NCBI RefSeq assembly: GCF_000013045.1
Contig: NC_007677.1
Coordinates: 1,550,001 to 1,614,000, forward strand
Source of the DNA: Salinibacter ruber DSM 13855
Lineage (GTDB): Bacteria > Bacteroidota > Rhodothermia > Rhodothermales > Salinibacteraceae
Length of the DNA stretch: 64,000 nucleotides
Direction of reading: 5' to 3'
Made by a program: the position numbers and the translations under genes. Of the stretch, positions 24,135 to 30,081 are shown one piece after another. The notes below the pieces were generated by a model, which was not told the origin of the DNA, did not search any database, and saw only the letters and a program-made list of their open reading frames with translations. The number at the start of each line of letters is the position of its first letter. The stretch's first letter is position 1.

Positions 24135-25784
24135 ATGACGTCCCTGACCCGCCGCACGGCGTACTACCTACTGGTGCTCGCGGCCGCCACCGTGGGACTG
24201 ACGGGCGCGTACAGCCTGGGCATGAGCGTGTGGGAGGGACGGCCGCGGCCGTGGTACCAGGCCCTGGAGGTGGTGGTGCAGACGTTCACGACGACCGGAT
24301 ACGGCGAGGACGCGCCGTGGAGCAGTCCCCAGATGAACATGCTGGTGGTCGTTATTCAACTCGCGGGCATTGGGTTCATTCTGAGTGCCGTGGACGTGTT
24401 CGTGGTGCCCTGGCTCCGCGAGGCGCTCAGGCCCACGGCCCCGAAGGGCCTCCCCGACCGGTCCGGTCACGTCATCGTGTGCGGCTACACGCCCCGGGTG
24501 GAGGTCTTCATCGACGAGATGATTGAGCGGGGAGAGGAGTACGTGCTCATTGAGCCCAACGTGGAGCAGGCCGCGTCGCTCTACGAGCGGGACTACGAGG
24601 TCATGGAGGGGGACCCGACATCGACTGCCGTTCTGGAGCGGGCCTCCGTCGGGGCGGCAAAGGCCCTGGTGGCCGACGTGGCCGACGACGAAAATGCCAG
24701 CATTGTGCTTGCGGCCCGTGAGGCCAGTCCGGAACGCCGCATCATCACGTTGGCCGAGGACGCCTCGGCAACCCGATACCACCGGGCGGCGGGGGCGGAC
24801 GTGGCGCTTTCGCCCCGGCAGCTGCTCGGGCGGAGCCTCGCTGCGCAGGTGCCCGTGGCCGCGGCGGCCAACGTGGAGGAACAGGCGACGGCGGGGACTG
24901 AGATTGACTTCGCGGAGCTCATCGTGACCCGGCACGGCCCGTCTCACGACCATTCACTCCGCGCCCTTCGGCTTTCGGAGCGGTTCGGGGTGCGCGTCAT
25001 TGGGGCCTGGCTCGATGGCACCTTCGAGACGTCCGTGGACGCCGACACGCCCCTCGAAGCGGGCACGCGCCTGTTTCTCGCCGGCACGCCCGACCAACTG
25101 GATGCCCTTCGCAGTGAGATGGCCCCGTACGTGCGGGCCTTCACGCCACAGTCCATCATCCTCGCCGGACACGGCGACTCGGGGCAGGCCGCGCGGGACT
25201 CCCTTCGGGCGGTACATGCCGACGTGACGGTGCTCGACCTCGAAGACGGGGCGGAGGTGGACGTGGCGGGGGACGTTCGCGACCCCGACGCGCTCCGGGC
25301 CTGCGGAATCGAGGACGCGTCGGCCCTTATCATCGCCGTGGACGACGACAGCGTCGCCACGTTCGCGACGCTCATCGCGCGCGACCTGAACCCGGAGCTG
25401 CAAATCCTCGTCCGGGCCCACGACGAGACGGCCGTTCAGAACCTCTACCGGGCCGGCGCGGACTTCGTGCAGGCCCTGCCGACGGTCTGTGGGCGGATGC
25501 TGGCCGCCACGGCATTCGAAGACGAGGACCACCGGTCTCGCGATCGACACATCAACGTGGTCCGCCTCCCGGCCTCCCCATTGGCCGGAGAACCGTTGAG
25601 GGAGGTCGATCCGGATGCACAGACCAACTACACAGTGCTTGCCGTGTACCGGGAGGGCGACTTCCTCACCGATCCCGACGACGCCCTCGTTGCCTTCGAG
25701 GCGGACGACGAGGTGCTCGTCGCCGGAACCGAGGACGGGATTCGGCAATTTCGGGCGCGGCTTGAGGACAGGCAGTCGGCGTAG
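24135..25784 (+). CDS. Two-TM potassium channel with two tandem RCK (TrkA N/C) modules
   Basis: 549 aa. TM1 (about 9-30), a pore helix, the selectivity filter TTGYGE (53-58) and TM2 (about 68-92) form one pore unit. The filter fits a K+ channel. RCK_N 1 starts near 107 (HVIVCGYTPRVEVFIDEM) and is followed by a TrkA_C domain (about 275-335). A second RCK_N (SIILAGHGDSGQAARDSL) and a second TrkA_C (to about 545) follow. Most MthK-like channels carry one RCK per chain; two in tandem resemble GsuK-type channels. RCK domains gate in response to ions or nucleotides. Potassium flux is central in a salt-in organism. ATG 24135 is used. Confidence 0.88.
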   Translation: MTSLTRRTAYYLLVLAAATVGLTGAYSLGMSVWEGRPRPWYQALEVVVQTFTTTGYGEDAPWSSPQMNMLVVVIQLAGIGFILSAVDVFVVPWLREALRPTAPKGLPDRSGHVIVCGYTPRVEVFIDEMIERGEEYVLIEPNVEQAASLYERDYEVMEGDPTSTAVLERASVGAAKALVADVADDENASIVLAAREASPERRIITLAEDASATRYHRAAGADVALSPRQLLGRSLAAQVPVAAAANVEEQATAGTEIDFAELIVTRHGPSHDHSLRALRLSERFGVRVIGAWLDGTFETSVDADTPLEAGTRLFLAGTPDQLDALRSEMAPYVRAFTPQSIILAGHGDSGQAARDSLRAVHADVTVLDLEDGAEVDVAGDVRDPDALRACGIEDASALIIAVDDDSVATFATLIARDLNPELQILVRAHDETAVQNLYRAGADFVQALPTVCGRMLAATAFEDEDHRSRDRHINVVRLPASPLAGEPLREVDPDAQTNYTVLAVYREGDFLTDPDDALVAFEADDEVLVAGTEDGIRQFRARLEDRQSA

Positions 25785-25807: not shown

Positions 25808-26884
25808 CTACGGTTGCTCGGGACCCGCCGGGTGCCCTGGGCCGATCCACTCGTGTCGGTGGAGCCGCTGCCAGGCCGCCGCAATTTGCGCCGGCGCGAA
25901 ACGCTCCGCCTTGCGCCGGCTCCAGTCCTGCACGGCCCGCACGACCGCCTCGGGACGGCGCCGGGCCTGCGCGTCGTGCCGCGTGAGCCAGCCGACCGTA
26001 GCGAGCAGTTCGAGCGTGTCGGGCGTGTCGCACTCCTCGATGAGGGCCCGCACCCGGCCCAGACGCTCACTGGCGGTCGGGTGGTCCGAAAGGGTGTCCC
26101 GCGCCACACCGACCGCTGGCGGGCGAAGGCGAAACGAGGAGTCCTGGTGCGACGGGTCGTACCCCGCAATAAAGGCCCCCTCAATCCGGCGCAGCACGGC
26201 CGTGAGGCCCGCGGCGCGGAGCCCGTACGTGCCCGGCTCGAACGTGAGGCGCAGGTCCTCGCCCGCCCCCTGCACCAGGAAGGCGAGATTGTGCGCTGCG
26301 TGTGGACTGACGGTGTCGCCCGGCGTGGCGTAGGCGTCGAGGACGGAGAGGAGGAGGGCACGTCCCCGGGTCATGGCGGGGCGATCGTCCGCGTCGGGGC
26401 CGCCGCCCTCTGCGCTCGCCGACCGGGGGGCGTAAACGAGCGCCCGGACGCCATCGAGCGACTTGAGCGGCGTGGTAAGCAGCGGGCGCACCGTCGGCCA
26501 GTCGAGCCCGCCCCCGCCGCAGCCCAGTGCGGGCACGGCGAGCGACGCAATGTCGTGGGCGGTGGCCTCGTCGACGAGGGCTGCCATCCCCGACTCGATG
26601 TGCGGGACGGACGAGGCGTCGCGCCAGTGGTCCTTCGTGGCCACGTTCAGGACGTAGCGGGGATGCTGGCCGTCGCCGAAGAGTCCCCCGCGGTCGTGCA
26701 CGAGCACGTCGCCCGGCGCCAGGGCCCCGGCGTCGCAGGCCGCCTCGTACTGCTCGTAGTTGTCGGGAAACCGCGTCTTGAACTGGCGGCACAGCCCGCG
26801 CTTCATGAGGCCGGCGCAGTGGACCGGGTTCACGAGCGCCGCCACGTCCGCGTCGAACAGATCCCCGTGTACAATTTCGACCAT
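25808..26884 (-). CDS. darG: DarG-like macrodomain ADP-ribosylglycohydrolase without adjacent DarT
   Basis: 358 aa. The N-terminal macrodomain (about 1-150) begins MVEIVHGDLFDADVAALVNPV and has GLMKRGLCRQFK, NVATKDHWR with Lys84 (the catalytic lysine position in Thermus DarG), and PALGCGGGGLDW. The canonical Asn in VNTVN reads His here (VNPVHCAG). Residues about 175-350 resemble the DarG C-terminal domain that binds DarT (HNLAFLVQGAGEDLRL, LLATVGWLTRHD, AAWQRLHRHEW). DarG reverses ADP-ribosylation of thymidine in DNA by DarT. No DarT-sized gene is beside it; neighbours are a K+ channel and gcvP. It may be a solitary antitoxin or a housekeeping repair enzyme. Confidence 0.8.
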   Translation of the reverse strand: MVEIVHGDLFDADVAALVNPVHCAGLMKRGLCRQFKTRFPDNYEQYEAACDAGALAPGDVLVHDRGGLFGDGQHPRYVLNVATKDHWRDASSVPHIESGMAALVDEATAHDIASLAVPALGCGGGGLDWPTVRPLLTTPLKSLDGVRALVYAPRSASAEGGGPDADDRPAMTRGRALLLSVLDAYATPGDTVSPHAAHNLAFLVQGAGEDLRLTFEPGTYGLRAAGLTAVLRRIEGAFIAGYDPSHQDSSFRLRPPAVGVARDTLSDHPTASERLGRVRALIEECDTPDTLELLATVGWLTRHDAQARRRPEAVVRAVQDWSRRKAERFAPAQIAAAWQRLHRHEWIGPGHPAGPEQP

Positions 26885-26914: not shown

Positions 26915-26951
26915 ACAAAGAGAAAGGGCCGCGAGACGGTCTCGCGGCCCT
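26915..26951 (-). terminator. Terminator downstream of gcvP
   Basis: AGGGCCGCGAGA (26925-26936) pairs perfectly with TCTCGCGGCCCT (26940-26951) around a 3-base loop. On the minus strand the stem is followed by TTCTCTTTG, suiting transcripts leaving gcvP. It overlaps the leader region of the DarG-like gene, which starts at 26884. Confidence 0.8.
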
Positions 26952-27020
26952 CCTGCTGAACGTGTTCGAACGTCCCGTTCCCACGAAATGCACGCAGGGA
27001 CAGGGCCCTGAGTGACGTGG

Positions 27021-29933
27021 CTACGCGGTCTTGAGGGCCGACGTCAGCTCCTCCTCTTCGTCCGCCTCGTAGGCGTCGGTCGGGGGACAGGCGCAGTAGA
27101 GGTTCCGGTCGCCGTAGGCGTCGTTCACGCGCCGCACGGTGGGCCAGAACTTGCGCTCGCGCACCGCCTCCACCGGATAGGCCGCCGTCTCGCGGCTGTA
27201 CGCGCGGTCCCACTCGTCGGCGGTAACCATCTCGGCGGTGTGGGGGGCCTGCTTGAGCGTGCTCGCCTCCGCCTCCAGCGTCCCGGTCTCGACGGCCTCG
27301 ATCTCGCTGCGGATGGCGGCGAATGCGTCGACCAGGCGGTCGAGCTCCGCCTTCGACTCGCTCTCCGTGGGCTCCACCATGAGCGTGCCGACCACCGGCC
27401 AGCTCATCGTGGGGGCGTGGAAGCCGTAGTCCATCAGCCGCTTCGCCACGTCCTGCTCGTTGATGTCGAGCTCAGAGCGGAACGGGCGGAGGTCGAGGAT
27501 AAACTCGTGGGCCACACGGTCATTGGGGCCCCGGAAGACGATGTCGTAGTGGTTCGACAGCTGGTCGGCCAGGTAGTTGGCGTTGAGGAGGGCCGTCTTC
27601 GACGACTTCGTGAGGCCCTCTGGGCCCAGCAGCTTGATGTAGGCCCACGAGATGAGCAGAATCAAGGCGCTGCCATGTGGCGCCGCGGCAATCGCGGGAA
27701 TGTGTTGGTCGCCGCCCGTCTCCACCACCGGGTGACCGGGGAGGAAGGGACTCAGGTGCTCGGCCGTGCAGACCGGCCCCACGCCCGGCCCGCCGCCGCC
27801 GTGCGGAATGCTAAACGTCTTGTGCAGGTTGAGGTGGCACACGTCCACGCCGTACTCGCGGGGGCGGCAGAGGCCGACCTGTGCGTTGACGTTGGCCCCG
27901 TCGAGGTACACCTGCCCGCCGTGCTCGTGGATGACGTCACAGATCTCTTCGACGTGCTCCTCGAAGACGCCGTGCGTCGACGGGTACGTAATCATCGCGG
28001 CGGCGAGGCGCTCGCTGTTTACCTCGGCCTGCTCGCGGAGGTCCTCCAGGTCCACGTCCCCGTTCTCGTCGCAGTCGATCGTGATGACCTCCATCCCGGC
28101 CATGTTGGCACTGGCGGGGTTGGTGCCGTGGGCGGACTCAGGGACGAGGCACACGTCCCGCTGCTCCTCGCCCCGCGCCTCGTGGTAGGCCTGAATGATC
28201 AGGAGGCCGGTATACTCGCCGGAGGCCCCGGAATTGGGCTGGAAGGAGATGTCGTCGAAGCCCGTGATCTCCGTCAGGTAGCCGCTGAGCTCGTCGATCA
28301 CCTGCTCGTACCCCGCCGCCTGCTCCTGGGGCGCAAAGGGGTGCAGGCCCGCAAACTGCGGGTTCGAGATCGGCTGGAGGGCGGCGGTCGGGTTCAGCTT
28401 CATGGTGCACGATCCCAGCGGGATCATGCTGTGGACGAGCGACAGGTCTTTGTCCGCCAGTGACTTCATGTACCGCGTCAGCTCGCCCTCGGAGTGGTAC
28501 GAGTTGAAGACCGGGTGCTCCAGGTACGAGGTCTGCCGCGGCATCGGGCCGTCGTAGCCGCTGTCGAGGTCCGCGGCCAGGTCGTCGGCGTACAGCTTCT
28601 GGCCGTTGGTGGCCCCGAAGACGGTGAAGAGCGCGTCCAGGTCTTCGGCGTCGACGGTCTGGTCGAGCGCGACGCCTACCGACCCGTCGTCGTAGTAGCG
28701 GAGGTTGATCTCGTGCGCCTCGGCCCGCTCGCGGACCTGCGCCTGAGTGGCATCGGTGAGGTCCACGCGGAGCGTGTCGAAGTACGCATCGTGGCGGACG
28801 GTGTGGCCCGTTCGGTTCAGCCCCTCGGCCAGCGTCTTCGTGAGGTCGTGCACCCGCGTCGCAATCTCGCGGAGCCCCTCGGGGCCGTGGTAGACGGCGT
28901 ACATCGACGCCATCACCGCCAGCAGCACCTGGGAGGTGCAGATGTTGGACGTGGCGCGCCCCCGTCGGATGTGCTGCTCGCGGGTCTGGAGCGCCATGCG
29001 GAGCGCCATCTCGCCGTCGGCATCCTTCGTAACGCCGATCATGCGACCGGGCACCTGGCGCTGGAAGCGTTCGCGGGTCGCGAAGTAGGCGGCGTGGGGC
29101 CCGCCGTAGCCCATCGGCACCCCAAAGCGCTGCGTGGAGCCGACGACCGCGTCGGCCCCCCACTCGCCCGGGGCCTCCAGGAGCGTGAGGCTCAGCAGAT
29201 CGGCGGCCACGGCCACGTAGGCGTCCGCCTCGTGGGCCCGGTCGGCCACGTCGCGGTAGTCGTGCACCGCGCCGTCGGTCGTGGGGTACTGCAGGAGGCA
29301 GCCGAACGTGTCCTCGCCGAAGACGAAGTTCTCGGGGGATTCCACGATGACGTCGATCCCGATCGGCTCGGCGCGGCCCTTTACCACCTCGATGGTCTGC
29401 GGGTGGCAGTCCTCCGACACGTAAAACGTGGCGGCGTCGCTGCGGCGGTCGACCCGATTCAGCATCATCATCGCCTCCGCCGCGGCCGTCGCCTCGTCGA
29501 GCAGCGACGCGTTGGCGATCTCCAGGCCCGTCAGGTCGATGGTCATGTCCTGGAAGTTGAGGAGCGCCTCCAGGCGGCCCTGTGCAATCTCGGCCTGGTA
29601 GGGCGTGTACTGGGTGTACCAGGCCGGATTTTCCAGGATGTTGCGCTGGATGACGGGGGGCGTGTGGGTGTGGCGGTAGCCCATGCCGATGAACGAGCGC
29701 CACGTGTCGTTCTTGGCGCCGGCGTCCTGAGCCGCGTCGAGCACCTGCTGTTCGGTGAGGGCGGACGGCAGGTCGAGGGGGGCGTCGGTCCGGATCGAGT
29801 CTGGAATGGCCGCGTCGACGAGGGCGTCGAGCGACTCGGCCCCGAGGGCGTCGAGCATGGCGTCCACGTCGGCGTCCGTGGGGCCGAGGTGACGCTCGTC
29901 GAACGTGTTTGCGGACGAGAGATCAATGGCCAT
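27021..29933 (-). CDS. gcvP: GcvP, glycine dehydrogenase (decarboxylating), P-protein
   Basis: Single-chain P-protein of 970 aa, the full length of the fused form (some bacteria split it into two subunits). It decarboxylates glycine on PLP and passes the aminomethyl group to lipoyl-GcvH. The N-terminal half carries FDERHLGPTDADVDAML and FIGMGYRHTHTPPVI. In the C-terminal half the PLP lysine is Lys705 in HLNLHKTFSIPHGGGGPG. No gcvT or gcvH is adjacent, so the cleavage system is dispersed. ATG 29933 is chosen over a start ten codons upstream. Residues are strongly acidic throughout. Confidence 0.95.
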   Translation of the reverse strand: MAIDLSSANTFDERHLGPTDADVDAMLDALGAESLDALVDAAIPDSIRTDAPLDLPSALTEQQVLDAAQDAGAKNDTWRSFIGMGYRHTHTPPVIQRNILENPAWYTQYTPYQAEIAQGRLEALLNFQDMTIDLTGLEIANASLLDEATAAAEAMMMLNRVDRRSDAATFYVSEDCHPQTIEVVKGRAEPIGIDVIVESPENFVFGEDTFGCLLQYPTTDGAVHDYRDVADRAHEADAYVAVAADLLSLTLLEAPGEWGADAVVGSTQRFGVPMGYGGPHAAYFATRERFQRQVPGRMIGVTKDADGEMALRMALQTREQHIRRGRATSNICTSQVLLAVMASMYAVYHGPEGLREIATRVHDLTKTLAEGLNRTGHTVRHDAYFDTLRVDLTDATQAQVRERAEAHEINLRYYDDGSVGVALDQTVDAEDLDALFTVFGATNGQKLYADDLAADLDSGYDGPMPRQTSYLEHPVFNSYHSEGELTRYMKSLADKDLSLVHSMIPLGSCTMKLNPTAALQPISNPQFAGLHPFAPQEQAAGYEQVIDELSGYLTEITGFDDISFQPNSGASGEYTGLLIIQAYHEARGEEQRDVCLVPESAHGTNPASANMAGMEVITIDCDENGDVDLEDLREQAEVNSERLAAAMITYPSTHGVFEEHVEEICDVIHEHGGQVYLDGANVNAQVGLCRPREYGVDVCHLNLHKTFSIPHGGGGPGVGPVCTAEHLSPFLPGHPVVETGGDQHIPAIAAAPHGSALILLISWAYIKLLGPEGLTKSSKTALLNANYLADQLSNHYDIVFRGPNDRVAHEFILDLRPFRSELDINEQDVAKRLMDYGFHAPTMSWPVVGTLMVEPTESESKAELDRLVDAFAAIRSEIEAVETGTLEAEASTLKQAPHTAEMVTADEWDRAYSRETAAYPVEAVRERKFWPTVRRVNDAYGDRNLYCACPPTDAYEADEEEELTSALKTA

Positions 29934-30081
29934 CTGAAGGCAAGAGGTTGGGTGAGAAGGCAAAACCAGGGCGTGAGGTCAAATGGACACTCAGGTATAT
30001 GCCCCGCAGGCGCGCCATGTTGTCCGGAATAGCTGAAAAGCCTGCAACAGACGGGTCGGGGGTGGGCCTGTGCGGGAAAGG

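Follow-up and report, generated by a model that had tools for sequence, protein, structure and literature searches.

Genomic context of a solitary darG gene in Salinibacter ruber

The window analysed here is a stretch of 64,000 nucleotides of the Salinibacter ruber DSM 13855 chromosome (positions 1,550,001-1,614,000). It carries an ATG-initiated gene for a DarG-like protein, lying between gcvP and a gene for a K+ channel (Table 1), the two neighbours that the initial annotation had named. In S. ruber only 23 bp separate darG from the convergent channel gene, and 136 bp from gcvP; the latter gap is non-coding and spans about 80-145 bp in the five species with a clear gcvP end. A terminator-like hairpin was found between gcvP and darG, although one such hairpin against 0.7 expected from shuffled sequences is only suggestive. 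Because this hairpin separates the two genes, darG probably forms its own transcription unit.

Table 1. Features at the darG locus (coordinates within the window).
Feature	Coordinates	Strand	Basis
K+ channel gene with TrkA/RCK domains; convergent downstream neighbour, conserved in the six darG-carrying species	24135..25784	+	Pfam; synteny
Solitary DarG-like protein, 358 aa	25808..26884	-	NF048014, 297 bits; PADLOC DarG, E 2.8e-91; five Salinibacter orthologues, 68-93% identity
C-terminal domain of the DarT-binding type (residues 173-345); fold retained, K199/Y202/GPY221-223 replaced by N/F/GLR	25850..26368	-	7YK3_D, TM 0.80; column statistics
Macrodomain, residues 1-153; Lys84, Thr83, His86, Trp87 and Gly121-Gly126 loop kept; Pro20/His22/Lys28 replace Thr/Asn/Gly	26426..26884	-	Alignment; 5M3E, TM 0.95
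Terminator-like hairpin with a stem of 14 bp, separating gcvP from darG	26923..26953	-	One hairpin versus 0.7 expected in shuffled sequence (only suggestive)
gcvP; upstream neighbour, same strand, conserved in the six darG-carrying species	27021..29963	-	Pfam; synteny

The gene order gcvP, darG, K+ channel is common to all six Salinibacter species that carry the gene, the five orthologues being 93, 85, 81, 77 and 68% identical to the S. ruber protein. In two further congeners (G001 and G012) both flanking genes are the same, but the site of darG is occupied by an M28-type peptidase and a beta-barrel-like ORF (names read from sequence). A foreign island was rejected on the basis of conserved synteny and a base composition without any break (GC3 0.885). 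Close relatives on plasmids or phages were likewise discarded, as all relatives of this kind fall below 60% identity.

Domain architecture and active-site residues

Two independent curated models describe the product as a full-length DarG: the NCBIfam equivalog NF048014, whose cut-off of 250 bits is exceeded over residues 2-341, and the PADLOC DarG model, which covers residues 1-344. The macrodomain matches the Thermus aquaticus (Taq) DarG structure 5M31 (E 7.4e-35; 42% identity to Taq DarG), and the C-terminal domain matches that of Mycobacterium tuberculosis DarG (7YK3_B, E 1.7e-8). Both folds of DarG are confidently predicted in the AlphaFold model (mean pLDDT 91), with a TM-score by target of 0.95 and an rmsd of 1.1 Å for the macrodomain against 5M3E, and a TM-score by target of 0.80 for the C-terminal domain against the M. 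tuberculosis DarG of the DarTG complex (7YK3_D).

The catalytic lysine had been assigned to Lys84 (S. ruber numbering), and the alignment confirms this residue as the equivalent of TaqDarG Lys80, which is essential for activity (PMC5179494). It is present in all six species. Trp87 corresponds to TaqDarG W83, which may stack with thymine (PMC5179494). Also correctly noticed was the change from Asn to His in the VNTVN loop, where TaqDarG Asn22 corresponds to His22 in six of six species; the accompanying changes of Thr20 to Pro and Gly28 to Lys, and those of the C-terminal signature, had been missed. As for the C-terminal domain, described as DarT-binding-like, the resemblance holds for the fold but not for the residues that are nearly invariant in toxin-paired DarGs, which are replaced in every Salinibacter orthologue.

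Assignment of the C-terminal domain as a Panacea domain was not retained. The GPY motif resembles the Panacea GPV motif (PMC8832971), yet no Pfam profile matched the C-terminal part of five two-domain DarGs, even at an E-value of 10. The domain is slightly basic, and a net charge of +2 over 173 residues was too slight to be taken as a sign of nucleic-acid binding.

Absence of a DarT partner

The S. ruber genome assembly comprises 3.59 Mb in two contigs (chromosome 3.55 Mb) and is 99.99% complete. A search of the whole genome with the DarT profile (PF14487) gave no match, while the same profile matched in a control genome. A DarT from a congeneric species (G009), used as a query without a positive control, also found no match in S. 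ruber. No DarT was found in the other five Salinibacter species with an orthologue, either adjacent or elsewhere in the genome. The view of the gene as a solitary DarG without an adjoining toxin is thus upheld by the search for darT in the genome and its relatives that the initial annotation had proposed, and it extends to five more species. G009 itself, a different Salinibacter species, has a complete, divergent DarT-DarG pair (L013/L016).

A decayed toxin beside the gene was also rejected: with flanks of 136 bp and 23 bp in S. ruber, no toxin remnant fits. It is very improbable that the protein counteracts a toxin encoded elsewhere in the genome that is unlinked or has escaped recognition. 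Such a role would be in keeping with a C-terminal domain that is retained and under selection, but DarT is absent both by profile and by the Salinibacter query, the gene leaves no space for a toxin next to it, either in S. ruber or in the other species that were examined, and DarTG pairs are otherwise adjacent, a DarT lying within the fetched flank of 76 of the 80 closest other DarG loci (best 80 of the GTDB scan).

Comparison with toxin-paired and other orphan DarGs

Residue conservation was assessed in an alignment with 102 toxin-paired DarGs, the counts being given without correction for relatedness. Asn22 and Gly28 occur in 102/102 of these proteins and Thr20 in 99/102, versus His, Lys and Pro, respectively, in all six Salinibacter orthologues. 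The GTDB DarG set was found with patterns open to both His and Asn at position 22; the Asn count was therefore not imposed by the way in which the proteins were retrieved. In the C-terminal domain, the toxin-paired proteins (n = 102) share Lys199 (100%), Tyr202 (99%), Pro222 (99%) and Tyr223 (95%); in six of six Salinibacter species Lys199 is replaced by Asn, Tyr202 by Phe and Gly-Pro-Tyr221-223 by Gly-Leu-Arg. Among highly conserved columns, 16 of 51 in the macrodomain and 13 of 32 in the C-terminal domain are altered in at least one of the six. Residues M1, G7, T83, K84, H86, W87, G121, G123, G125 and W129 are unchanged in all of them.

Within the phylum sample, a DarG scoring above the cut-off is encoded by 36 genomes, and DarT adjoins in most. 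The DarG genomes without any DarT are three Salinibacter, G058, G209, G231, G255, G341 and G269, the last with a truncated copy. The aligned full-length orphan DarGs outside the Salinibacter clade, from the phylum and GTDB samples, all keep Thr20, Asn22 and Gly28, as exemplified within the phylum by L009/L180 (G058), L020 (G341), L029 (G231), L030 (G255) and L048 (G209). Because they retain the standard motif and most of them cluster with toxin-paired DarGs, these orphans would apparently represent recent, independent toxin losses. A recent orphaning of the Salinibacter DarG was rejected, since its orthologues lack the motif that the other orphans retain. Judged from these residues, the Salinibacter gene does not appear to be simply an antitoxin minus its toxin.

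A further arrangement was observed in two genomes, where only the C-terminal part of DarG (positions 129-338) is matched in a 324-aa frame (G113:C26:10841-11470 and G128:C1:2020124-2020753). The N-terminus of this frame is perhaps another antitoxin domain, for example NADAR.

Ancestry and selection

In a maximum-likelihood tree of the macrodomain, the six Salinibacter proteins group together with full support (100/100). They are joined by a macrodomain-only protein from G018 (99/96), which has His22 but carries Ile84 where the catalytic Lys would be, and next by a macrodomain-only protein from G021 (99/87), with Asn22 and Lys84. This Salinibacteraceae clade is DarT-free in all of its genomes, an absence that is weaker for G018 and G021, whose drafts are 86-87% complete. 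Vertical inheritance is the best reading of the data. The G018 gene (L178, 3826-4356, minus strand; also L010) follows an obg-like GTPase gene (name from sequence) at a distance of about 50 bp, a housekeeping setting unlike that of the Salinibacter genes, and its product may be an ADP-ribose reader.

Pairwise dN/dS values among the six species, estimated by the simple Nei-Gojobori method, are about 0.16 for the macrodomain (0.10-0.21) and about 0.26 for the C-terminal domain (0.23-0.47). Both halves are under purifying selection, the C-terminal half being less constrained. The ratio of C-terminal dN to macrodomain dN is 2.2 in Salinibacter versus 1.5 in toxin-paired DarGs, with overlapping ranges. 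As dN/dS is well below 1 in both domains, the gene is not a decaying relic. That it persists without function after toxin loss is scarcely credible: other orphans of the phylum (G231, G255, G341 and G058) do resemble recent toxin losses, but in Salinibacter the frames are open throughout, lineage-specific residues are fixed, and dN/dS and synteny largely refute the idea.

A putative ADP-ribosyl hydrolase working without DarT

On balance, we favour an ADP-ribosyl hydrolase that was domesticated, is inherited vertically and functions independently of DarT, with its activity and substrate being putative. It is proposed that an ancestor within Salinibacteraceae lost the toxin that partnered its DarG antitoxin and that the orphaned protein was domesticated into a stand-alone, monocistronic enzyme. 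The macrodomain would still bind ADP-ribose, with Lys84 releasing it, whereas the loop that positions the modified base would have been remodelled from T20/N22/G28 to P20/H22/K28. The C-terminal domain would retain its fold but no longer be tuned to cap DarT. The most likely job of the protein would be to clear nucleic acid of ADP-ribose, attached as thymidine-ADPr or as a related adduct, for repair or housekeeping, with no DarT of its own. The nucleophile and the ADPr pocket are kept while the base-positioning loop and the C-terminal K/Y/GPY residues have changed, and the simplest account is a domesticated hydrolase on which selection for holding DarT has ceased. The domain make-up, the lack of DarT, the synteny, the purifying selection, the fixed substitutions and the predicted fold come from the data themselves; the hydrolase activity, the substrate and the loss of DarT binding are what we infer from them. 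The housekeeping removal of ADP-ribose suggested in the initial annotation appears compatible with vertical inheritance, purifying selection and an intact Lys84.

Several observations count against this explanation. In TaqDarG, the N22A mutation is the next most damaging after that of K80 and strongly reduces turnover (PMC5179494), and in the Streptomyces coelicolor macrodomain protein SCO6735 the N27S mutation nearly abolishes it (PMC9411070). Therefore, His22 could mean a weak or altered activity. The loss of the catalytic Lys in the G018 relative fits a binding role in the clade, the C-terminal domain is still constrained, implying some further function, and there is no known source of thymidine-ADPr in the S. 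ruber genome.

Alternatively, the solitary DarG would shield the cell against DarT from phages, plasmids or neighbouring cells, by de-modification or by toxin binding; protection against DarT of phages or other cells had been suggested in the initial annotation. The DarG C-terminal domain blocks DarT by mimicking ssDNA, as cited in PMC11481870, and this binding route is weakened here by the replaced residues; the protein may nevertheless act against DarT as a hydrolase only. The macrodomain alone neutralises DarT in other systems (PMC5179494, PMC9411070), that of Taq sufficing as an antitoxin that rescues cells from DarT (PMC5179494). Moreover, a complete DarTG pair exists in Salinibacter G009, and related DarTs occur on viral contigs. 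However, at the positions where DarT-neutralising DarGs are most conserved, six of six species carry other residues, in both the base-positioning loop and the C-terminal domain, and vertical retention at a single chromosomal site is atypical for a defence gene. Because the DarT-facing signature is altered, protection against foreign DarT would be less likely, and we regard it as improbable overall. DarG-like stretches are present in 268 phage records, mostly as the macrodomain only (Pseudomonas, Erwinia, Escherichia and Streptomyces phages; e.g., H16-H24). Some of these genes are labelled 'ADP-ribosyltransferase' though they match the hydrolase, and they are possible counter-DarT genes.

Slightly more doubtful still is a changed-substrate enzyme or ADP-ribose reader, in which the pocket would serve protein-ADPr, O-acetyl-ADP-ribose (from a SIR2 protein) or ADPr on another base. 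The fixed T20P, N22H and G28K changes, the loss of the catalytic Lys in the G018 sister protein and a genome with a SIR2 homologue and no detected Tpt1/KptA, looked for as an alternative transferase, are in line with it. Against it, the protein retains Lys84, His86, Trp87 and the glycine loop that binds ADPr. TARG1, with a natural Ser at the N22 position, is still active on thymidine-ADPr (PMC9411070), and a second, canonical macrodomain gene could already serve O-acetyl-ADP-ribose. This gene and the SIR2 homologue (G000:C1:722541-722876, L139, and G000:C1:3193779-3194306, L184) form a possible O-acetyl-ADP-ribose pathway. The genome was also searched for PARP, with a positive control that matched nowhere.

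Relation to known systems and significance

The Salinibacter protein shares with DarG, the type II/IV antitoxin of DarTG2 (NF048014; T. aquaticus, M. tuberculosis), the two domains and both folds, the catalytic Lys, the ADPr-binding glycine loop and Trp87. It differs in having no DarT partner, in the T20P, N22H and G28K changes and in the loss of the C-terminal GPY/K/Y signature; its gene is monocistronic and lies in a housekeeping context conserved across species.

A precedent for the favoured reading is SCO6735. This solitary macrodomain can reverse the ADP-ribosylation of thymidine and rescues E. coli from DarT, and its authors proposed that it protects against foreign DarT (PMC9411070). 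Both SCO6735 and the Salinibacter protein are DarG/TARG1-related and encoded in genomes without DarT. However, SCO6735 carries Gln85 at the position of the catalytic Lys, keeps Asn27 and has no described DarG-type C-terminal domain, in contrast to Lys84, His22 and the DarG C-terminal domain of the Salinibacter protein. TARG1/C6orf130 is a related macrodomain with a catalytic Lys, which acts on thymidine-ADPr DNA and tolerates a residue other than Asn at the N22 position, but it is a eukaryotic, single-domain protein with a Lys/Asp dyad and about 20% identity over the domain. A text search of the literature for DarG described as solitary, standalone or orphan found only the SCO6735 paper (PMC9411070), and none of the papers searched ties S. 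ruber to macrodomains. Solitary bacterial macrodomains that reverse thymidine ADP-ribosylation were thus already known; what is new is a two-domain solitary DarG with fixed changes in the active site and the C-terminal domain.

More tentatively, domestication may have made of the antitoxin an enzyme that does not depend on a toxin. Such an enzyme would position the base by a new chemistry (His22/Pro20/Lys28), would have put its C-terminal domain to another use, and would have as its substrate an endogenous ADP-ribosylated nucleic acid, or another ADPr conjugate, made by an uncharacterised Salinibacteraceae transferase. In these six species, an antitoxin has outlived its toxin under selection, with parallel changes in the catalytic loop and the toxin-binding domain. 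This provides a natural test of whether ADP-ribosylation of DNA, or of other targets, occurs in bacteria that lack DarT. It also provides a test of which residues DarG needs for toxin binding and which for hydrolysis.
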